Of a DNA stretch of 64,000 bases, positions 3,689-62,535 are shown in pieces; positions within the stretch are counted from its first letter, which is position 1, and every line of letters starts with the position of its first letter. Source of the DNA: a virus; IMG/VR virus record IMGVR_UViG_3300019889_000013, positions 1 to 64,000 of that record; one strand, given 5' to 3'. The position numbers and the translations under genes were made by a program. Under the pieces are notes generated by a model. The model searched no databases. It was given only the letters and a program-made list of their open reading frames with translations, and was not told the origin of the DNA.

Positions 3689-4555
3689 TCATCCGAAAAA
3701 CTTGTTGGCGCAGACCGGGCCGATCCCGGCGGCGACACTGGCGGCGTCCGTCAGTTCGCGGGCGCAGATGCAGCATGTGCCGGTCGACCGGCCGTACTTG
3801 ATCGCGGCTTCCATCGGGTCGGCGGCGATCTCGCAGAGCAGCTTCAGCGTGTCGGGCTTGGCTTCGCGCCGCGCCTCGAACTTGCCGTTGACGATCTTGC
3901 CGACATACTCGCCGCCCAGATCGCGGTCCATGACATAGAGCGCGCCAGCGTTTCGGCCGCCTGCCGGTGCCCGCTTGATCGTCAGGCGTTCCGTCCTAAA
4001 AATCGGCTTCATCAAGCCGTTGCCCGTGGCCGTGGCGAACAGGGCGTCAATCGCCTCGACCCCCACGCTGCCGGACTTGGCTGCGTTCTCGGCGTTTTTC
4101 TCGGCCTTCTTGGCTGCGAAGAACTCGGCGTCCTTGGCCATGTCCTTGCGGATGATTTCGATTGTCGTATCGAAGAGCGATCCGTGGGCATCGAGCCGGA
4201 CCTTGAAGCCGTAGTAGTAGTTGCTGCCGCTCTCGACCCGCTTGTTGACGTAGGCGATCTCGGCGGCGTGATCCGCTTCCCACTTGGCCCGGTTGGCTTG
4301 CTTGGTGGCCTTGCCTTTAACGGCGGCGACCTGTCCCTTGGAGATGTTGCCCTTGCCGTTGCACTTGAAGCATTTGCCCCAGCGCGTCTGTCCAGAGCCA
4401 CTGCACTTCGGGCACTTGAACACAGCGTCACCGCCGTTGACCATGTGGGCATTGCGGCGGATGTCTTCATTGGTGGAGGTGTTGACCGGGGCGTCGAAGC
4501 TGTCGTCGTGCAGGTCTTCGAAGCTGACTGGTTCCTTGGAGGCTGAATGGTTCAT
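3689..4555 (-). CDS. DnaJ-type zinc finger plus DUF6011-like C-terminal domain
   Basis: 288 residues. Residues ~47-70 hold KCPKCSGSGQTRWGKCFKCNGKG, two CxxC(x)GxG units like half of the DnaJ zinc-finger domain. The middle (~75-230) has a Lys/Ala-rich helix and a small beta domain. The C-terminus reads GTCCICARELTDAASVAAGIGPVC, the signature of DUF6011-type zinc domains. First gene after the promoter at 4594-4633, whose TTGACA/TACATT boxes lie 40-70 bases upstream of its ATG. Likely a nucleic-acid or protein binding factor; role unknown. Confidence 0.8.
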   Translation of the reverse strand: MNHSASKEPVSFEDLHDDSFDAPVNTSTNEDIRRNAHMVNGGDAVFKCPKCSGSGQTRWGKCFKCNGKGNISKGQVAAVKGKATKQANRAKWEADHAAEIAYVNKRVESGSNYYYGFKVRLDAHGSLFDTTIEIIRKDMAKDAEFFAAKKAEKNAENAAKSGSVGVEAIDALFATATGNGLMKPIFRTERLTIKRAPAGGRNAGALYVMDRDLGGEYVGKIVNGKFEARREAKPDTLKLLCEIAADPMEAAIKYGRSTGTCCICARELTDAASVAAGIGPVCANKFFG

Positions 4556-4593
4556 CGGGCTATCCCTTCCGTGAACGAAACACTTACGATCTG

Positions 4594-4633
4594 AATGTAA
4601 ACTCCGGTTACAGGGGTGTCAACTCTGTACTAC
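4594..4633 (-). promoter_or_regulatory. Sigma70-type promoter with two operators (P4.6)
   Basis: On the minus strand: TTGACA (4617-4622), 17-base spacer, TACATT (4594-4599). A 17-bp dyad TGTAACCGGAGTTTACA (4596-4612) overlaps the -10 box. The element ATTTCGTAGTAC (GTAC core at 4627-4633) lies just upstream of the -35 box, and the TAG stop codon of the upstream gene sits inside it. It drives the gene starting at 4555. Confidence 0.75.
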
Positions 4634-52349: not shown

Positions 52350-55300
52350 ATGGTCGATATCGATGCCTTGTTCGCGGATGTTCCCACCGAAGCCGAACGG
52401 GTGGCAATGGACAAGGCCAGCCTGCTCTTCGCGGACATTCCTGACGAGAAGCCAGCGGACGAGACGGGCTGGGTCGAGGGGGCTGTAACCGGAACGCTCA
52501 ACACCGGGGCGCGTGCCGGGGCGCGGCTCCAGCAGGGCGGTTCCCAGTTGATGCTGGAACAGACGGCCGGTCGCGCCGCTGACCGCAAGCGGAGCTTCAG
52601 CGAGATTCTGGAAGACGAGCAGTTGTCGAGCGGCCTGACCGACATGCAGGGCAAGCCGATGAAAACCAACACCGGCGGCGAATATGTCTCGGCAGCGGCC
52701 CGCTGGATTGATGCCAAGTATGCCGACATGATCGGCACGGACGACGAGGCGGCGGCACAGTCCTATGCCGAAAGCATGCAAAAACACATGGACGAAGTCG
52801 CGTCGATACCGAAGTCGCAGATCGCGCAGGCGTTCGAAAAGAAGGCGATGGTCAAGGACGCAACGCTGGGCCAGACGCTGGCCAACTTCGGCAGCGCGAT
52901 TCTCGACAATCCGGTCGGCGGCTTCTCATGGATGCTGGAGACGGCAGGAGAAAGCGCGCCGCAGATCGGCGCGGCGGTCATTGGCGGTGCGCTCACCAAA
53001 AACCCGGCGGTCGGCATCGGCCTGATGGGCGGCGGCAGCTATGCGACGGAACGCTACACGTCGCCCGGTGAGTTCTTTCAGGAGAAGGGGTTGGACCTCA
53101 AGAAGCCGGAAGACCGGGAAAAACTGCTCAATGATCCGAAGATGATGGCGGAAGCGGCAGATCGCGGCATGATCCGTGGCCTGATCATCGGTGGCTTCGA
53201 CGCTCTCTCCGGTGGCATCGCAGGCAAGGCGCTGATCAAGAATCCGTTCGCCGAAGCGCTGGCGCAAACCATGACGCAGGGCCTGCTCGGCGCAGGCGGC
53301 GAATATGGCGCGCGCAAGGCGGCCGGTCAGAAGATCGACTGGGGCGAAGTCGTCGCCGAAGGCTTTGCCGAATTGGTCACCACGCCATTCGATATGGTCG
53401 CCGCCGCAAGGGGCGAACGTCCCGGCACCGCCGACGAGGCGCTCCCGGCCGGGGATGTCCTGCCAGCGGAGCCGCCGGTCGTGCCTCCCGGAGCAGCACC
53501 CGCAGCACCGCCGGAAGCAGCACCGGCAGCACCGGCCGTGCTGGAAGCGGCAGGCTTGCCGAAGACACCCGAGAATATTGCGGTCGCCGAAAGCGTGCCG
53601 GAACAGGTCGCGCGCCAGACCGAATTGCCCGACAGCCCACGGCTGACACCGGCCGACCGCGCCTCGCCCATCCCCAACGAGATCATCGACGCAGGCAGGG
53701 CAACGGTCGAGGCGGCAACCGGGCAGGAATCAAGCTTCACCACGACGAAGGTGGTCGACGGCCACCGGCAGGTGGTCAACGCCAAGGTGTCCGATTTGGT
53801 CGCCGCCAACCGGGTCGAGACGCAGGCGGTGGTATCGGAGATCATGCAGGGGGTTGATACCCCGGAAATCCTTGCACAGCCCCAGCCAGCCGCCGCGCCT
53901 GCAAGCACGGGCGAGATGCCGGGTACACTCGGGCCTGTTGAGGCTTCCGCCTCTGTAGCGCCTTCTATGGCCGAAACCGCGCCGGTCGCCCCGACCATAG
54001 AACGCGCCAACCAGCCGCCGCCTGCCGAAGGCTCGCCGCTCGCCGAACAGATCAAGAAGTTCAAGGCGCGCTCGGCCGCCCGCGATGTCGAGGTATCGGA
54101 CCTCACCGCAAGCGGCAAGTCGATCAAGCTGGTGTCGAACCGAGATCCGACCCGCAAGGCGATGGTCGGGCCTGACATGAGCGAGCCGGGGAAATTCCGC
54201 GTCACCTATATCGATGAGCAGGGGCCATCCGGGCACACGGTCTACGACACGATGGAGGAAGCCGCGCGCAGTGTCGTCGGCTCCTATCATCCCGTTGGCA
54301 ATATCGCCAAGCAGGTGGTCAAGAAGGATGTGGCCATCACCCCGGCCGGACGCGAGGTGCCGGTGGTCTATGCCGTTGTCGAGGCCGACGATCTGGTTTC
54401 CTCGCAGCGCGACGAGGGCGGGGCCAACCCGGCCTATCCGCAGGAATTGCAGCCGCGCGACCGCAGCCGTGGCACGTCGGACGTGCAGATCAACCAGATT
54501 GCGCAGAACCTCAACCCGGCACTTCTCGACAACGTTGCCAGCGCCACCGATGGCGCTCCCATCGTTTCCGCCGATGGCGTGGTCGAGAGCGGCAATGGCC
54601 GCGTGCTCGGCATCCGCAAGGCCTACAAGGAGAACCTGCCCGGAGGACAGACCTACCGGCAGTATCTGGTCGACCAAGGTTATATCGACACCGTCGCGGC
54701 CAAGGAGATGAAGAACCCTGTGCTGGTGCGCATCCGGCAGGGGCAAATGGAGCCCGGTGAGCGGACGGCATTTACCCGCGAGGCCAACGAACGCACGACG
54801 ATGACATTGTCGGCGACGGAAAAGGCGATGGCCGATGCGGAGGCGCTGTCGCCGGATACGGTCGGGCTCTACAGGGGCGGCGAGGTTGCGGAGGCAGGCA
54901 ACCGTGACTTCGTCCGCTCCTTCATGCAGTCGGTGGTCAGTCCCAACGAACAGGGCGCGATGGTCACCCCGGACGGGGAACTGTCGCAGGAGGCCATCCG
55001 CCGGGTACAGGCGGCGCTCCTCGCCCGTGCCTATGGTGACGCCGATCTCGTCGGGGCTCTGGTCGAATCGACCGACAACAACATCAAGGCCATCGGCGGC
55101 GCGATGATGGATGTCGCAGGCGCGTGGTCGCAGATGCGTTCCGAATCCAAGGAAGGCACGATCAGCCCAGACGTCGATGTCACCCCCTTCCTACTCGAAG
55201 CCATCCGGCTGGTGCAGCGGGCGCGCAACGAGGGCAAGCCGCTGTCGGCGCTGGTGTCGCAGACCGACATTTTCTCCGGGACGACCATCGTGCCGGAAGC

Positions 55301-58300
55301 CGAGATGCTGCTGCGGCTGATGTTCCGAAACAACGTCAGTTGGACACAACCGGCCGGACGTGAGAAGCTGGCGGAAGCACTACGATATTATGTGACGGAA
55401 GCCCGCAAGACCGCACCCGGCATCGACCTGCTTGGCGAGACTGCACCACCGGCGAACAAGATTCTCGAACAGGCGAAGAAGCGGCAATATGGAACAGAAG
55501 AAACCCAAGAAAAGCTCACCCTTGGTGGTGGAACTGCTGGCAAGAACGATGGAGCACCAGCAGGAGGACGAGCCGTCGAAGCTCAACCGCGACCGAAACC
55601 TGAAAATCGCCCAGCAGTTCCGGGAAAAACACGGGAAGAAGCCAAACTCAGCGTCCCAGAAGCCGGAACAAGAGTAACGCTTCCCGGCGGCCAGACCGCC
55701 ACCATCGAGCATCCCGACGAGGAAACATTCCGCATTACTGTCGACGGCAAGCGCGTCGGCGAGATGCACCTCACCCTGAAGCGCGCCGCGCCCTATGCCA
55801 CCAGCGTTTCGGTGATCGGAGAGCGGCGGCTGGGTGTGGCGACGGCGCTGTACGATGCGGCTGAAAAGGTACTCGGGCGGCGGCTGATTCCAAGTCCGCT
55901 TGGCCTGTCGCCGGAAGCGATCGCATTCTGGAAGAACCGGCTAGGTAAGATGGAGCCGGGAGAAAAGCAGGCGCTCCTCGCCGAAGCTCTGAAGATCGGA
56001 CAGGACGCAGGCGTCGGCAGAACGGCGCGTGACCGGGTCGATTCTCTGGGCTACCGCGAAGAAGCCAAGTTCAAGAAGTCCAGTCTTCCCGGCCCGCTGG
56101 GTGCGGCTGTCGACCGGATGAACAAGCTGCGCCTTGAGAAGCGGCTCAATTCACCGGAGATCGCGGAGGCCATCAAGGCGATGGCGGATATCCCGGTAAC
56201 CTTCGATCCCAAGGGACCGCCGGTTGCCCAAGGCTTTTGGGACAGCAGGGCGCGAACATACAATTTCGCAGAAAAGGGCGAGCGGCCTCACCGTGTTCCA
56301 AGCAATGACGCAGCAGTCGAGGTTCTGGTCGAGCGCGCCCGCTCTCTGGCGGTTGACGAACTCAATGGTGACCGAAAGAAGGCAGGCCAGCCGCCGCTAG
56401 AACCGTACATCCCGTCGCGGGATCGCAAGGCAACCATCATCATCGGGCCACCGGCGGCAGGCAAGTCGACCATCGCCAATGCCATCGCGCTGCGCATGCG
56501 GGCGGCCATCGCCGACGTCGATGATGCCAAGAAAGTCATCCCGGAATATGGCGGTGGCATCGGCGCGAATGCGGTCCACGAAGAAAGCTCGGTCTTGGGG
56601 GAGGAAGTGCTGGAGCGCCTGATGAACGCTGGCGACAATATCATCATCCCCAAGGTCGGCCACAAGCTCGCCAGCATCGAGAAGCTGCGCGAGAACTTGA
56701 AGCTATTTAACTATGACGTCGAACTCGTCCTGATGGACGTGGACCCCCGCACTGCCGTTGGCCGCATGCTCGGCCGGTTCAAGAGTAGCGGGCGGCTGAT
56801 CAACCCAACGTATTTCTTGGACGTCGTCGGCGAACCGCCGGTCACCTACGATCAGGCAAAGAAGGAAGGAAAATTCGATGGCTACTCAAGAGTCAAATCG
56901 GAAAACAACGTTCCTACAAGAGTACACGAAGCTATTGGAAAAGCGGCGAGCGTGGCTCGGGGAGAAATCTTTGAGCGAAGCGGAGAGATTGGAACGGGGC
57001 GACCTTCTGAGGGAAGAGGCGATGAGCGTGGTGGCAAAACAGTACGAGAAAGACCACAAGAAGCAAAGCTGAAGACAGCCGAACCGGCCCCCCAGCGAGG
57101 CAAGAATGTCGACGTCCAAGGCGGCGTCATCCACTACGCGACGTCACCCGGCTTTGAGGAAAAGGCCGATGCGGTTCTCGCAGATCTGCGCAAGGCGCTC
57201 GACAAGCTCGGCCTGACCGGCGTCGACCTTGGGGTGTGGCAGCAAATCTTCGCCGATCTGGAGTCCGGCCCGGTCGGCCCGGACGGTGTCTATCTCAGGA
57301 ACGTGATCGACATCTCCCTGCAATCCGCCGACCCGGACATGGTGCTGCACCATGAGGCGGTGCATGCGATGGTCGGTCTTGGCCTCCTCACCGATTCGGA
57401 GATGAACATCCTCAATCGCAAGTCGAAGAAGGAATGGATCACCGACGCGATCAAGGAGCGCTACCCGGAATCACAATGGGTCGAGGAGGGCATCGCCCAC
57501 GCCTACACCGACTGGATCAACGGCACGCGCATGGACGGCATGATTGCCCGCTCCTTCAAGAAGATAAAGACCTTCTTGAAAGCGCTGTACCAGACGCTGA
57601 CCAACCACGACATCCGCACGGCCGACGACGTCTTCCGGCAGATGACATCCGGCGAAGTCGGCAAGCGTTCGGCCGGTGCCGACACCCGCAAAGAGCCATC
57701 GTTTGCCGTGACCGAAACCGTCGACATGTTCGAGGGCAAGCGCGAACAGTATGTCCTTCCCGGCGCGGAGAAACTCACCGACGCGCAGATGGCGCAGCGC
57801 AAGGCCGAAGAGAGGATGACGGCGAAAACGGCGCAGAAGTCGGTCGAGGCGCTGCCGCTTTTTGGCGACCAGAAAGACCAGTTGGCGCTGTTCTCGAAGC
57901 CGCCATCCGGCCCGAATGATCCGCGCTTCAATCTCAATGTGCCGCCGCACACCACGACGCAGGCGGCGGCGGTAACGCAAGGGTTCCTCAATCGCGGCCA
58001 GTTTGTCGACCGTGCTATCCGGGTGCCGTTCCAGTTGTTCGGCGGGCTCGACAGCCAGAACCGCTGGCGGGCCACCAAGCGGCTGACCGACATGATGGGA
58101 CCGCAAAGAATACAGGCAGGAAGTCTCAGCGCCGTCATTGGCGGTGCGGTTGGCGGGGCGATAGCCGGTCCCATTGGCGGCGTGGCTGGCTTTTTCGCAG
58201 CAGGGACGGCGGGCGCGTACATCCTTGGTTCGGCACCGGCACCGGCGAACGGCAAGTTCGGCTGGTTCAAGAGTATCGCGGAGAACGGCAAGCGCGGCCT

Positions 58301-60713
58301 GATCGACGGCTACGGGCTCGACCCGGCCTATATCGAGGCCTACCAGAAAAGCGATCTCGGCAAGGCCGCGATCATGCGCAAGGCACAGGACGTCCTCAAG
58401 GTGCTGTCCAATGCGGGTGTCAGCGCGCCGGAAGCCAAGGTGTTGCAGGCGGTCCTGACCGGCGAGAACGTGACCGACGCCGACATGATCAAGCTGGCGG
58501 TGCCGATCCGCAAGGCAATCGATGACATGGGAGCCGAAGCCGTTTCCCTTGGATTGATCTCGGCCGAAAGTTTCGAGAGAAACCGCGCCTCCTACCTGCA
58601 CCGCGTCTACACCAAGAACGAGATCGACCAGTCGACGCTGGCAGGCTGGGTGTCGGCCAAGATGACCGGACGCCGCAAGAAGATCATCGGCGACCAGTTG
58701 AAGGGTCGCGGCATGTTCATGGACATCGAGACTGACCGGCTGATGCAGGACGTCGATTCGTTCAAGAGCGGCAAGCGCGGCGGGCCGCAGCTTAACGAGA
58801 AGTTCCGGGTGATCGATGAGGTGAGTTCAACGCCGAATCTCAATCCAACTGCCCCTGCCAGCGACAAGGTGTTGCGCCGCATCTACCTGCCGACAAACGA
58901 GGCGGTGCCTGCCAAGTATCAGGGGCCAAACTGGGTGGATCGCGGGACGTGGGAGGTGCGCAAGTCCGGCGCAAAGCAGACGCTATGGCGCGACTACACC
59001 AAGGAAGAGCGCGGCAAGATGGGCGAGCTTGTCGATGCCCGCTACACCATCGCCAAGACCTTCATGCTGATGGCCAACGATCTGTCGACCGGGCGATTCT
59101 TCAAGGAAGTCTCCGAGAAGGACGAGTGGACCCGTTCGATGCAGCCGCCGGATGGCCAGTGGAAAGAGGCGTCCGAGTACAACCAGTATTGGAACGACCC
59201 GGAGATTCAATGGGTCAAGGTGCCCGATACCAACATCGCCGACACCGGCGGCAAGAAGCGCTGGGGTGCGCTGGCGAACAAGTTTGTCCGGGCGGAAATC
59301 TGGCGCGATCTCAACGAGGTCAACATCGCCAACAACCCCGGCACATGGCGCATTCTTTTGACGCAATGGAAGAAGAACAAGACCGCGCGTAACCCGGTCG
59401 TTCACATGAACAACGTCGTCTCGAACCTGATGTTCATGGACCTTGCCGATGTCCGCGCCCAAGACCTCGTCGCTGGCATCAAGGCTTTTGCCAAGGGCGA
59501 CGTCCACTATCAGGAAGCGCTCGACAACGGTGCGTTCGGCGGCGACATGGTTGCCCAAGAGATCAGGGACGAAGTGTTCAAGCCACTGCTCGATGCGATC
59601 ACCAAGCAATCGACCGGCGCTGGCAATCCCTTCCTTGCCAAGGCTGGCATGGTGGGCGTCGTCGCTGACAAGTTGTGGACGTGGGCCAAGGCCGCCGACA
59701 ACGGCATGCTCCGGGCCTATCAGGCAGAGGATCAGATATTCCGCATGGCCACCTACATGCGCCGCCGCAGTCAAGGCGAGAGTCCGAAGGTGGCAGCGGC
59801 CAATGCCCGCGACCAGTTCCTCAACTACGACATCCGCGCGCCGTGGATACGGGCCATGCGCAATTCATTCTTCCCGTTCATTTCCTACACCTACCGGGCG
59901 GTGCCGATGCTGGCGGAAAACTTCATGCACCGGCCGTGGAAGGTGGCGAAGTACGTGGCCATCGCCTTCGCGGTCAATGCGCTGTCCTACATGTTCGATG
60001 ACGGCGACGACGGCGAGGAGCGCGAACGTGCGGCGCTGCGCGACGAGGAGCAGGGTTACTCATGGCTGGGCACGCCGCGCATGGTGCGCATGCCGTGGCG
60101 CGATGCGCATGGCCTGCCGGTGTTCCTCGACGTGCGCAGGTGGGTGCCAGCAGGCGACATCTTCGACACCACGCAAGGCTCGTCGGCGCTGCCGATCCCG
60201 GCTCCGCTGATGTTCGGTGGGCCGATGATGTTGGCTGTCGAGTTGATGCTGAACAAATCGGCATTCACCGGCGAGGAGATCATCAACGAACTGACCGACA
60301 CCTCAACGGACAAGGCTGCGAAGATCGCCGATTATCTCTGGAAGGCGTGGATGCCGAACTCGTTCTGGACGCCAAACTCATGGTACTGGACCAAGATCAG
60401 CAACGCGCTGCATGGCGCGACCGACAGCGCCGGTCGCCCCTATTCGATACCGCAGGCGGTCGCCTCCTCCTTCGGCATCAAAATAAAGCCGCTCGATGTC
60501 GAGGACGGAATCAAGTGGCACTTCTACGATTTCCAGAAGGTGCAGAAGGAACTGAAGTCACAGTTGCGCTCGGCGTCCGGGCGGCTTGATCGCGGCTTGA
60601 TCAGCCAGTCGGCTTTCGATGCCGAAGCCGCTGCGATCATGGCGAAGTTCGAAACGCTCGGCGGGAAGATTGATACATTCTCGCGACAAACCGAGAAGAA
60701 GCCAAAGCCATGA
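52350..60713 (+). CDS. Giant multidomain polyvalent protein
   Basis: 2787 residues. Visible parts: hydrophobic patches (~190-360); Pro/Ala linker (~365-400); a DdrB/ParB-like domain (~660-790, NPALLDNVASATDGAPIVSA then VVESGNGRVLGIRKAY); a GNAT-like piece (~1110-1195); a zeta-toxin-like P-loop kinase (IIIGPPAAGKSTIANA, ~1362-1377); a zincin motif MVLHHEAVHAMVG (His1668, His1672); a Gly-rich membrane stretch (~1925-1960); and a C-terminal large polyvalent-type domain (~2330-2700) with a transmembrane helix near 2531. It is the last virion gene and probably ejected. Two linkers overlap small genes in another frame (55489-55677 and 56878-57072). Confidence 0.75.
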   Translation: MVDIDALFADVPTEAERVAMDKASLLFADIPDEKPADETGWVEGAVTGTLNTGARAGARLQQGGSQLMLEQTAGRAADRKRSFSEILEDEQLSSGLTDMQGKPMKTNTGGEYVSAAARWIDAKYADMIGTDDEAAAQSYAESMQKHMDEVASIPKSQIAQAFEKKAMVKDATLGQTLANFGSAILDNPVGGFSWMLETAGESAPQIGAAVIGGALTKNPAVGIGLMGGGSYATERYTSPGEFFQEKGLDLKKPEDREKLLNDPKMMAEAADRGMIRGLIIGGFDALSGGIAGKALIKNPFAEALAQTMTQGLLGAGGEYGARKAAGQKIDWGEVVAEGFAELVTTPFDMVAAARGERPGTADEALPAGDVLPAEPPVVPPGAAPAAPPEAAPAAPAVLEAAGLPKTPENIAVAESVPEQVARQTELPDSPRLTPADRASPIPNEIIDAGRATVEAATGQESSFTTTKVVDGHRQVVNAKVSDLVAANRVETQAVVSEIMQGVDTPEILAQPQPAAAPASTGEMPGTLGPVEASASVAPSMAETAPVAPTIERANQPPPAEGSPLAEQIKKFKARSAARDVEVSDLTASGKSIKLVSNRDPTRKAMVGPDMSEPGKFRVTYIDEQGPSGHTVYDTMEEAARSVVGSYHPVGNIAKQVVKKDVAITPAGREVPVVYAVVEADDLVSSQRDEGGANPAYPQELQPRDRSRGTSDVQINQIAQNLNPALLDNVASATDGAPIVSADGVVESGNGRVLGIRKAYKENLPGGQTYRQYLVDQGYIDTVAAKEMKNPVLVRIRQGQMEPGERTAFTREANERTTMTLSATEKAMADAEALSPDTVGLYRGGEVAEAGNRDFVRSFMQSVVSPNEQGAMVTPDGELSQEAIRRVQAALLARAYGDADLVGALVESTDNNIKAIGGAMMDVAGAWSQMRSESKEGTISPDVDVTPFLLEAIRLVQRARNEGKPLSALVSQTDIFSGTTIVPEAEMLLRLMFRNNVSWTQPAGREKLAEALRYYVTEARKTAPGIDLLGETAPPANKILEQAKKRQYGTEETQEKLTLGGGTAGKNDGAPAGGRAVEAQPRPKPENRPAVPGKTREEAKLSVPEAGTRVTLPGGQTATIEHPDEETFRITVDGKRVGEMHLTLKRAAPYATSVSVIGERRLGVATALYDAAEKVLGRRLIPSPLGLSPEAIAFWKNRLGKMEPGEKQALLAEALKIGQDAGVGRTARDRVDSLGYREEAKFKKSSLPGPLGAAVDRMNKLRLEKRLNSPEIAEAIKAMADIPVTFDPKGPPVAQGFWDSRARTYNFAEKGERPHRVPSNDAAVEVLVERARSLAVDELNGDRKKAGQPPLEPYIPSRDRKATIIIGPPAAGKSTIANAIALRMRAAIADVDDAKKVIPEYGGGIGANAVHEESSVLGEEVLERLMNAGDNIIIPKVGHKLASIEKLRENLKLFNYDVELVLMDVDPRTAVGRMLGRFKSSGRLINPTYFLDVVGEPPVTYDQAKKEGKFDGYSRVKSENNVPTRVHEAIGKAASVARGEIFERSGEIGTGRPSEGRGDERGGKTVRERPQEAKLKTAEPAPQRGKNVDVQGGVIHYATSPGFEEKADAVLADLRKALDKLGLTGVDLGVWQQIFADLESGPVGPDGVYLRNVIDISLQSADPDMVLHHEAVHAMVGLGLLTDSEMNILNRKSKKEWITDAIKERYPESQWVEEGIAHAYTDWINGTRMDGMIARSFKKIKTFLKALYQTLTNHDIRTADDVFRQMTSGEVGKRSAGADTRKEPSFAVTETVDMFEGKREQYVLPGAEKLTDAQMAQRKAEERMTAKTAQKSVEALPLFGDQKDQLALFSKPPSGPNDPRFNLNVPPHTTTQAAAVTQGFLNRGQFVDRAIRVPFQLFGGLDSQNRWRATKRLTDMMGPQRIQAGSLSAVIGGAVGGAIAGPIGGVAGFFAAGTAGAYILGSAPAPANGKFGWFKSIAENGKRGLIDGYGLDPAYIEAYQKSDLGKAAIMRKAQDVLKVLSNAGVSAPEAKVLQAVLTGENVTDADMIKLAVPIRKAIDDMGAEAVSLGLISAESFERNRASYLHRVYTKNEIDQSTLAGWVSAKMTGRRKKIIGDQLKGRGMFMDIETDRLMQDVDSFKSGKRGGPQLNEKFRVIDEVSSTPNLNPTAPASDKVLRRIYLPTNEAVPAKYQGPNWVDRGTWEVRKSGAKQTLWRDYTKEERGKMGELVDARYTIAKTFMLMANDLSTGRFFKEVSEKDEWTRSMQPPDGQWKEASEYNQYWNDPEIQWVKVPDTNIADTGGKKRWGALANKFVRAEIWRDLNEVNIANNPGTWRILLTQWKKNKTARNPVVHMNNVVSNLMFMDLADVRAQDLVAGIKAFAKGDVHYQEALDNGAFGGDMVAQEIRDEVFKPLLDAITKQSTGAGNPFLAKAGMVGVVADKLWTWAKAADNGMLRAYQAEDQIFRMATYMRRRSQGESPKVAAANARDQFLNYDIRAPWIRAMRNSFFPFISYTYRAVPMLAENFMHRPWKVAKYVAIAFAVNALSYMFDDGDDGEERERAALRDEEQGYSWLGTPRMVRMPWRDAHGLPVFLDVRRWVPAGDIFDTTQGSSALPIPAPLMFGGPMMLAVELMLNKSAFTGEEIINELTDTSTDKAAKIADYLWKAWMPNSFWTPNSWYWTKISNALHGATDSAGRPYSIPQAVASSFGIKIKPLDVEDGIKWHFYDFQKVQKELKSQLRSASGRLDRGLISQSAFDAEAAAIMAKFETLGGKIDTFSRQTEKKPKP
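55489..55677 (+). CDS. Small gene embedded out of frame in the giant gene
   Basis: 62 residues, starts MEQKKPKKSSPLVVELLART and ends SASQKPEQE. The frame has strong G/C at third codon positions, like real genes here, whereas the giant protein reads as a low-complexity Gly/Pro/Lys linker through the same bases. The helical core (RDRNLKIAQQFREKHGKKP) looks like a real small protein. The Shine-Dalgarno sequence is weak (GAAGAAGCGG). No relative recognised in the window. Confidence 0.5.
   Translation: MEQKKPKKSSPLVVELLARTMEHQQEDEPSKLNRDRNLKIAQQFREKHGKKPNSASQKPEQE
56878..57072 (+). CDS. Embedded gene, paralogue of the gene at 1642-1878
   Basis: 64 residues, starts MATQESNRKTTFLQEYTKLL. Residues ~12-64 align with the small protein at 1642-1878: about 22 of 53 identical, including AWL, REEAM versus RDEAM, and VAKQ versus IAKQ. 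A strong Shine-Dalgarno sequence (AAGGAAGGA) lies 8 bases before the ATG. The giant protein passes through the same DNA in another frame as a charged Gly/Arg/Glu linker after its kinase-like domain. The local sequence is richer in A/T than its surroundings, which suggests a more recent insertion. Similarity to a second copy makes chance very unlikely. Confidence 0.75.
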   Translation: MATQESNRKTTFLQEYTKLLEKRRAWLGEKSLSEAERLERGDLLREEAMSVVAKQYEKDHKKQS

Positions 60714-61426
60714 TCCAGTTCGACCGCAAGACCTACTTCGACATGGTCCGTGACAGCCTGTTCATGGGCAAGATCACACAGCAGCAGGTAGACGGGCAAG
60801 ATTTTATCCTCGACACATGGGAGGACACGCGGCCGGGGCATGACATCCGCTGGCTGTCCTATGAACTGGCGACCACCATCCACGAAACCGCCTCGACCAT
60901 GTGGCCGATAGAGGAGTACGGCAAGGGCAAGGGCCAGCCCTACGGCGTTCCTGATCCAAAAACCGGCGAGGCCTATTACGGGCGCGGCTTCGTGCAACTG
61001 ACGTGGATAGACAACTACCGGAAGATGACGCCGATCATCGTTCCATTCTTTTCGGCGACGGCCATCGATCTGGTGCAGAATCCAAGCCAAGCGCTGATCC
61101 CGGAGATTGCCGCAGCCATCATGTTCGAGGGCATGGAGCGCGGCTCGTTCCGCAAGGGGCAGACGCTGGCGCGTTACTTCGATGAGGATACGGACGATCC
61201 GTTCGGGGCGCGGGAGATCATCAACGGCGACAAGAAGAGCGTGCCGTCATGGTCGAACGGGGTGAGTATCGGCAATCTGATCAAGGGCTATCATGAAAAA
61301 TTCCTGTCGGCGCTCAAGGCATCGCAGACAGCGGTCGTGCCGCCACCAGTATCGGAGCCAACAAGGGGCGTGGTCACGCTGGTCGGCGATCTCGAAGTCT
61401 GGCTCAATGGGGTAAAACTTGCGTGA
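60710..61426 (+). CDS. Endolysin, GH19 chitinase/lysozyme-like
   Basis: 238 residues. ELATTIHETASTMWPIEEYG (Glu59 in HET is the likely acid), then KTGEAYYGRGFVQLTWIDNY, the GH19 signature around the second half of the cleft. Residues ~1-45 are an N-terminal helix that lacks a signal peptide, so release depends on a holin. The last ~45 residues may be a small wall-binding strand region (GVVTLVGDLEVWLNGVKLA). It cleaves peptidoglycan glycan strands at lysis. Overlaps the giant gene by 4 bases. Confidence 0.85.
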   Translation: MIQFDRKTYFDMVRDSLFMGKITQQQVDGQDFILDTWEDTRPGHDIRWLSYELATTIHETASTMWPIEEYGKGKGQPYGVPDPKTGEAYYGRGFVQLTWIDNYRKMTPIIVPFFSATAIDLVQNPSQALIPEIAAAIMFEGMERGSFRKGQTLARYFDEDTDDPFGAREIINGDKKSVPSWSNGVSIGNLIKGYHEKFLSALKASQTAVVPPPVSEPTRGVVTLVGDLEVWLNGVKLA

Positions 61427-61576: not shown

Positions 61577-62185
61577 ATGAAAACAGTTGTCCTCATGATC
61601 CCGCTGTTCGTCATCGCCGGATACCAGATGGCGAATGCAGTGGAGTTCAATGATCAGCAGTGCCGGTATCTCAACAAGCACAACATCAACACCGCGAACC
61701 TGTGTAAACGGCCACCCGCCAATGCCAGCGAAAACCCCGGAGGAAATGGTGGATCGATTGGTGGCAGTTCTGTTGGCAATGGCTCTGGTAGCGGTGGTTC
61801 TGATAGCGGGAGTGGCTCTGGTGGTGGAGGTTCTCCTCCCGGCAGCGGCGGTAATCCCCCCGGTGGAAATCCACCCGGTGGAGGCGGTGGCAATCCCCCC
61901 GGTGGCGGTGGCAATCCTCCCGGCGGTAACCCACCCGGCGGTAATCCTCCCGGCGGCGGTCATCATGGTGGAGGTCACCACGGTGGCGACCACGGTGGCA
62001 AAGGCGATCACGGCAAAGGCGATCACGGCAAAGGCGATCACGGCAAAGGTCATGGCAACAATGGTCATGGCAACGGCGATCAGGACGCGCCCGGTAATTC
62101 GGGCGGCCACAACAACGGCGAGAACGGCAGCCATTCAGGACAAGGTAATTCCGGTGGCGGAAAAGGCGGCCACGACAGGCGTTAG
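61577..62185 (+). CDS. Exported Gly/Pro/His-rich repeat protein
   Basis: 202 residues. Residues 1-21 are a signal peptide (VVLMIPLFVIAGYQMANA with an ANA site). Then a short domain with two Cys (FNDQQCRYLNKHNINTANLC), followed by low-complexity tracts: GSGSGG, GGNPPGG repeats and a His/Lys/Gly tract (GDHGKGDHGKGDHGKGHGNN). The His-rich tail could bind metal ions. It is the last late gene, after the endolysin, and its stop overlaps that of the facing minus-strand gene (TTAG). Role unknown; possibly acts on the envelope or is released at lysis. Confidence 0.65.
   Translation: MKTVVLMIPLFVIAGYQMANAVEFNDQQCRYLNKHNINTANLCKRPPANASENPGGNGGSIGGSSVGNGSGSGGSDSGSGSGGGGSPPGSGGNPPGGNPPGGGGGNPPGGGGNPPGGNPPGGNPPGGGHHGGGHHGGDHGGKGDHGKGDHGKGDHGKGHGNNGHGNGDQDAPGNSGGHNNGENGSHSGQGNSGGGKGGHDRR
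61997..62053 (+). repeat. Tandem 15-bp repeats in the His-rich gene
   Basis: The unit GGCAAAGGCGATCAC occurs three times in perfect tandem (61997-62011, 62012-62026, 62027-62041), followed by a partial copy to 62053. It encodes GKGDH units. The perfect identity suggests recent slippage and possible length variation among relatives. Confidence 0.8.
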
Positions 62186-62535
62186 TCGAATAACTTCCTT
62201 GGAGGCAGGCTCTTGGATGACGTCGGCTTGCCTCCGGGCTTTCTGCCAGTGCCGACCGTGATCATGTCGTTATCGAACCAGAATTTCTGGGTGCGCCGCA
62301 GGGCATCGAGGCAGTGGCTATCCATTGCCCAGACTCTTTGATCGAGCGCGGCGTGGCAGGAAGAACAGGCGAACACCGCGTGCCAGTCATCGCCCTTGTT
62401 GCCCATGCCCTTCACCGGGTTTGGCAGGTGCGCCAGCACGGTGGTTGCCGGGTCGTGATTGCAGATGCCGGTGAGCCGCAAGGTACACTTCTGCCCCTTG
62501 GCGCTGTCGCGCAACGCCTGCGAGACGAAGCCCAT
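62182..62535 (-). CDS. DUF1364 / HNH-like nuclease-domain protein
   Basis: 117 residues from the ATG at 62535. SQALRDSAKGQKCTLRLTGICNHD, cut here as KGQKCTLRLTGICNHDPATT, then VLAHLPN and GDDWHAVFACSSCHAALDQR is the DUF1364 pattern: Cys and His residues that form an HNH-like metal site (C..C...H...C..CH). These proteins are common in phages and probably nucleases. It faces the last late gene. Confidence 0.8.
   Translation of the reverse strand: MGFVSQALRDSAKGQKCTLRLTGICNHDPATTVLAHLPNPVKGMGNKGDDWHAVFACSSCHAALDQRVWAMDSHCLDALRRTQKFWFDNDMITVGTGRKPGGKPTSSKSLPPRKLFD

Follow-up and report, generated by a model that had tools for sequence, protein, structure and literature searches.

In the epsilon/zeta and PezA/PezT type II toxin-antitoxin systems the antitoxin gene lies ahead of the toxin gene. 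A small functional gene nested out of frame in its partner gene is found in the Rz/Rz1 spanin genes of lambda-like phages, which encode lysis proteins. AvrRxo1 and its downstream partner Arc1 (Xanthomonas and others), a toxin and an antitoxin in E. coli, are encoded with the gene of the zeta-like kinase first and the small antitoxin/chaperone gene behind it; this antitoxin-downstream order is described as the exception (PMC4938570). We analysed the IMG/VR virus record IMGVR_UViG_3300019889_000013 (64.5 kb) over a window of 64.0 kb (positions 1 to 64,000), in which a giant gene with a zeta-toxin domain contains a second, small gene, P0001. The toxin comes first, as in AvrRxo1:Arc1, and a small phage gene is nested out of frame, as in Rz/Rz1, with which no sequence relation is suggested. 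P0001 is taken to be a genuine gene overlapping the end of the zeta domain in the +1 frame, and the protein it encodes most likely serves zeta as antitoxin, either an immunity protein or a chaperone (probability about 0.7). The relevant features are:

56878-57072, + strand: nested gene P0001, 64 residues, in the +1 frame relative to the giant open reading frame (ORF); probable antitoxin of the zeta domain (homology, the related locus L059, codon-position data).
56862-56870, + strand: Shine-Dalgarno sequence AAGGAAGGA of the nested gene, within zeta codons (sequence, duplex energy).
56877-56885, + strand: zeta codons GAT GGC TAC for D-G-Y (D1510-G-Y), where the ATG at 56878 is the nested start (sequence, model, survey of 80 loci).
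56415-56904, + strand: zeta-toxin kinase domain, residues 1356-1518 of the giant protein (Pfam PF06414, E = 1e-15; model matches 1GVN and 3Q8X).
52350-60713, + strand: giant gene, a phage polyvalent protein of 2787 residues (domain matches; relatives L003-L006 and L059).
57087-60710, + strand: conserved C-terminal core of the giant protein, an HExxH metallopeptidase-like region and beyond (core alignment).

The ORF of P0001 lies wholly within the giant ORF. Its start is formed by the codons of the last beta-strand of zeta, D-G-Y (GATGGCTAC), and its stop lies about 5 codons ahead of the alignable core, which begins around residue 1580; P0001 thus spans the terminal part of the zeta module together with the linker that follows. 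The Shine-Dalgarno sequence, described as strong in a preliminary description of this DNA, has a duplex energy of −7.9, compared with an average of −1.7 for control ATGs. The giant frame reads the stretch as low-complexity sequence, as had also been remarked; it is rich in R, G and E, and its third-position G+C content is only 0.38 over P0001, compared with 0.77 for the gene as a whole. The values for the small frame are 0.54/0.37/0.63. When the giant codons of the window were shuffled synonymously, the frame of P0001 was still open in 60% of the trials. Openness of the frame is by itself unremarkable here, and it is the homology that makes P0001 more than chance.

A free-standing paralogue is present at the far end of the window:

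1642-1827, − strand: P0002, listed as 1642-1878, with a probable TTG start at 1827 (homology to P0001).

The start is more probably this TTG than the ATG at 1878, because the homology opens at SDEQKTT. P0001 and P0002 share 25 of 57 residues (44%) without gaps, with a pairwise E value of 2e-19 (a single comparison); about 22 in 53 residues had been noted earlier. A second homologue is nested at the same place in L059, an IMG/VR record with the same DdrB-zeta-core giant (49–65% identity across matched blocks, 66% in zeta) and the sole relative found that retains the zeta region of this giant gene. Its nested product is 49% identical to P0001 over 49 residues and 48% to P0002 over 54. Over 55 gap-free codons 41% of the bases differ between the window and L059, and the BLOSUM score exceeds that of random substitution by 3.2 standard deviations in the small frame and by 0.5 in the giant frame; the relative that keeps the giant gene thus keeps the small frame, and the giant frame drifts there. 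The preliminary description had named loss of the small frame in such relatives as a refuting outcome, and its proposal passed this check. The earlier observation is confirmed and is stronger than had been stated, and the proposal of a dual-coding stretch whose second frame is backed by homology is borne out by these matches. It is very probable that P0001 is a real gene: the comparative evidence supports dual coding well, and the small frame is presumably translated.

The association of small genes with zeta was assessed in a larger set. A profile scan of IMG/VR with a two-row zeta alignment (the window and L054, a relative from a bacterial genome) yielded 80 loci; with the zeta region of the giant alone as query the family was not retrieved, and the two-row alignment was needed. 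The motif [DN]G[YF] stands at the end of zeta in 74 of the 80, and in 73 of these 74 it is written with GAT or AAT, which makes an ATG (69% expected from the same domains). A +1-frame ORF of at least 50 codons starts from the motif ATG in 72 of the 80 loci, L059 included; the best +1 ORF lies wholly inside the toxin-bearing ORF in 73 (a few being short or with another start). The loci with an ORF form 46 clusters, 47 when the window is added. Shine-Dalgarno matches of at least 4 bases precede 45 of these 47 starts, compared with 15% of control ATGs (p = 1e-29). After synonymous shuffling of the toxin codons the +1 frame was open in 17% of cases on average (near 0 to 87%), compared with 47 of 47 observed; since the 47 were picked for having the ORF, the unselected figure to set against 17% is 72 of 80. 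In one locus, L109 (around 4450-4619), D-R-Y replaces D-G-Y, which removes the usual start; a +1 ORF whose C-terminal half is similar nevertheless remains, its ATG lying slightly further downstream.

Selection on the small frame was assessed from substitutions in non-overlapping sequence pairs with a fully nested small gene, all taken from the nested family common in other phages, which is distinct from the window's own. In zeta upstream of the small gene, toxin-frame third positions take 62% of the substitutions. Within the small gene, this share drops to 31% in the half that lies past the zeta fold, where small-frame third positions (toxin-frame first) rise to 44%; past the small stop toxin-frame third positions are back to 55% (p = 4e-9 for the drop and 2e-4 for the recovery). 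Amino-acid changes in the linker numbered 56 in the small frame, compared with 78.1±4.4 expected from random placement, and 72 in the giant frame, compared with 80.0±4.2. The most divergent pairs gave the same answer (97 vs 128.3±5.1 and 126 vs 131.8±5.0, respectively). The shift in substitutions and the deficit of small-frame changes indicate that the small frame is clearly constrained in the linker, where the giant frame is little more than kept open; where the small gene runs over zeta codons, in its first half, the constraint comes mainly from zeta. Linker substitutions follow the small frame and not the giant frame. Sequence comparison supports dual coding, homology, a systematic linkage to zeta and selection on the small frame.

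The zeta domain scores 58.3 bits against PF06414 (curated cut-off 22.3) and belongs to this family. An AlphaFold model of the zeta part (predicted local distance difference test score, pLDDT, of 79) has 1GVN and 3Q8X as its best PDB matches (template modelling scores of 0.78–0.83 by query length) and also matches 2P5T, the fold of the toxins of epsilon/zeta and PezA/PezT. The last strand comprises model residues 158-163, Y-S-R-V-K-S after D1510-G, with low confidence beyond it. The Walker A lysine K1372 and residues D1389, D1391, E1412, R1472, R1476 and R1482 are invariant across 52 sequences. The model confirms the P-loop kinase fold, with the conserved residues intact, and toxicity through kinase activity is predicted; intact conserved residues suggest a need for control.

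The coupling of a small gene to the toxin gene that marks type II toxin-antitoxin systems was found in 72 of the 80 loci. The small gene is absent from three related giants (L003/L006, L004 and L005) that have the core and no zeta domain. It therefore belongs to the zeta-toxin module, as its start on the last-strand motif also indicates. This fixed coupling to an intact zeta kinase, together with the toxin-first precedent of AvrRxo1:Arc1, makes P0001 most likely the cognate antitoxin. Ribosomes would load at the Shine-Dalgarno sequence within the zeta codons and start at the ATG of the last-strand D-G-Y codons, so that the partner would be made by internal initiation on the messenger RNA (mRNA) of the giant gene, at the point where synthesis of the toxin domain ends. 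Zeta would be bound by the small helical protein during synthesis and packaging of the giant protein. We infer packaging in the virion and injection with the DNA from the polyvalent-protein family (Iyer et al. 2017, PMC5512222). Under that model only the giant protein would pass into a new host and the small protein would be left in the old one, and P0002, which would be a second antitoxin copy acting in trans, would supply the same protein and protect the next host cell.

Several observations weigh against this assignment. P0001 resembles no known antitoxin: P0001 and P0002 have no Pfam or NCBIfam match, P0001 has no significant PDB sequence match, and its model has no significant PDB fold match. 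That model, a predicted two-helix hairpin (pLDDT 79), was built from only three sequences. It has no detectable similarity to epsilon, which places P0001 outside the epsilon/PezA family in sequence and fold. The Arc1 motif KExFD(x25-27)(Y/L)ExxYY (PMC4938570) is absent from P0001 on inspection, so that P0001 does not belong to that family either; Arc1 genes are separate downstream ORFs of 81–121 residues, whereas P0001 is nested in the toxin-bearing frame. The comparison with L059 is a single pair, in which identity counts alone give P = 0.10 for both frames and do not separate them. No homology was detectable between the family of P0001, its L059 homologue and P0002 and the common nested family, which has a C-terminal helix and a motif of aromatic and acidic residues, for example FDYD; either the small genes diverged beyond recognition or unrelated genes took the same slot. 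In the 80-locus survey the nested ORF is absent from the related zetas L124/L126/L130 and L125, and it is also absent from more remote phage zetas, at about 30% identity, of haloviruses, Bacteroides phages and cyanophage PSS2. Both absences indicate that not every phage zeta needs a nested partner, and the second that the feature belongs to the zeta subfamily of the window. The zetas without the ORF lie at about 3995-4483 in L124 and L126; L124, the one examined, carries P1367L and H1410A at two positions that hardly vary among the other zetas, and the zetas of L124, L126 and L130 may thus be altered or inactive.

P0001 could be a real overlapping gene whose product is not an antitoxin, such as a cofactor that the zeta kinase uses or a chaperone that helps the giant protein to fold or to be packaged. 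The coding evidence applies equally to such a gene, P0001 matches no antitoxin family, and even Arc1 was initially reported to be a chaperone (PMC4938570). However, the tie to zeta, with no small gene in core-sharing giants that lack the domain, and the control that an intact kinase seems to call for make this rather unlikely. The preliminary description had suggested that a small gene was inserted into the giant gene without breaking its frame, and the position between two modules of the giant protein and the paralogue elsewhere in the genome would fit such an event. We consider it very improbable and do not retain it, since the first codons of the small gene are zeta codons and the same start recurs in dozens of zeta loci, while giants without zeta lack the gene. 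Moreover, L098, L120, L132 and near-copies of these have a toxin frame that ends within the small gene, the arrangement of any ordinary overlapping gene pair, and among the relatives examined none was found that joins the same zeta directly to the core without the small gene. A likelier history is one in which toxin and small gene were an overlapping pair and the toxin frame continues into the module that follows. That the +1 ORF is an untranslated by-product of zeta codons and linker composition is scarcely credible: conserved zeta residues do dictate its start and first codons, and GC-rich members often have the frame open by chance (60% in the window), but mean chance openness is 17% against an ORF in 72 of 80 loci, and homology to a non-overlapping gene, small-frame selection in the linker and the strong Shine-Dalgarno sequence all argue for a gene.

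Free-standing copies of the small gene are present in two cases, the left arm of the window and L054. In L054 a small ORF overlaps the zeta end at the same codons and appears different in sequence from both nested families; this ORF (1952-2155) is followed just downstream, outside the toxin ORF, by a very similar tandem copy (2183-2386). No further copies were found among 46 phage records, many of them fragments. P0001, or P0001 with P0002, retrieved no homologue from INPHARED phages, PLSDB plasmids, IMG/VR or the genome collection; P0002 as query gave none in plasmids and only chance-level matches in phages. In 385 alphaproteobacterial genomes the P0001 profile gave two marginal matches, of which the one inspected was low-complexity and without a nearby zeta ORF, and the profile of the common nested family gave one marginal match.

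The giant protein carries a further domain upstream of zeta:

54345-54737, + strand: DdrB-ParB domain, residues 666-796 of the giant protein (Pfam PF18763, E = 8e-34).

Its core, which is common to other phage giants and whose relatives sit in alphaproteobacterial contigs, contains the HExxH motif; this region was seen in the core alignment alone and has no family match. The giant qualifies as a polyvalent protein, since it is a very large phage protein that combines a number of unlike domains, a zincin-like metallopeptidase region among them. It is as large and multidomain as the phage polyvalent proteins of Iyer et al. 2017 (PMC5512222), with its DdrB-ParB and zincin-like metallopeptidase regions; the portion of that paper used here does not mention nested partner genes, of which the present giant has one. 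An endolysin-like gene (60710-61426, + strand; phage endolysins of phrog_181, E = 7e-21) overlaps the giant stop by 4 bases. Behind it, a 202-residue ORF (61577-62185, + strand) begins much like a signal peptide and contains a long repeat rich in glycine (GNPPG, GKGDHG); a second long ORF lies over it in another frame (61635-62261, + strand), probably an effect of this repeat.

In the open-access literature searched no precedent was found for nested zeta partners or for nested or overprinted antitoxins, a weak negative as subscription papers were mostly outside the search. If the antitoxin role holds, the kind of system is a known one and its genetic arrangement is new. The chances seem to us evenly balanced that it stands for a class of toxin-antitoxin pairs widespread among phages, whose antitoxin is overprinted on the toxin gene, with ribosome-binding site and start on the last strand and the rest in a linker only weakly selected in the toxin frame, so that both are expressed from one mRNA and are hard to separate by recombination, and in which a free-standing left-arm antidote protects newly infected cells. 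Zeta domains of phage giants appear partnerless in annotation; the partner found here is hidden in the other frame. If the nested protein is an antitoxin, it would explain how a phage can make and package a kinase that would poison its own producer. It would also provide a clear example of dual coding that has persisted for long under measurable selection, and gene finders could be missing such pairs systematically. Whether the zeta domains of phages reach the next host as active toxins can then be tested directly, as can the presence in a phage of a trans-acting antidote to them.
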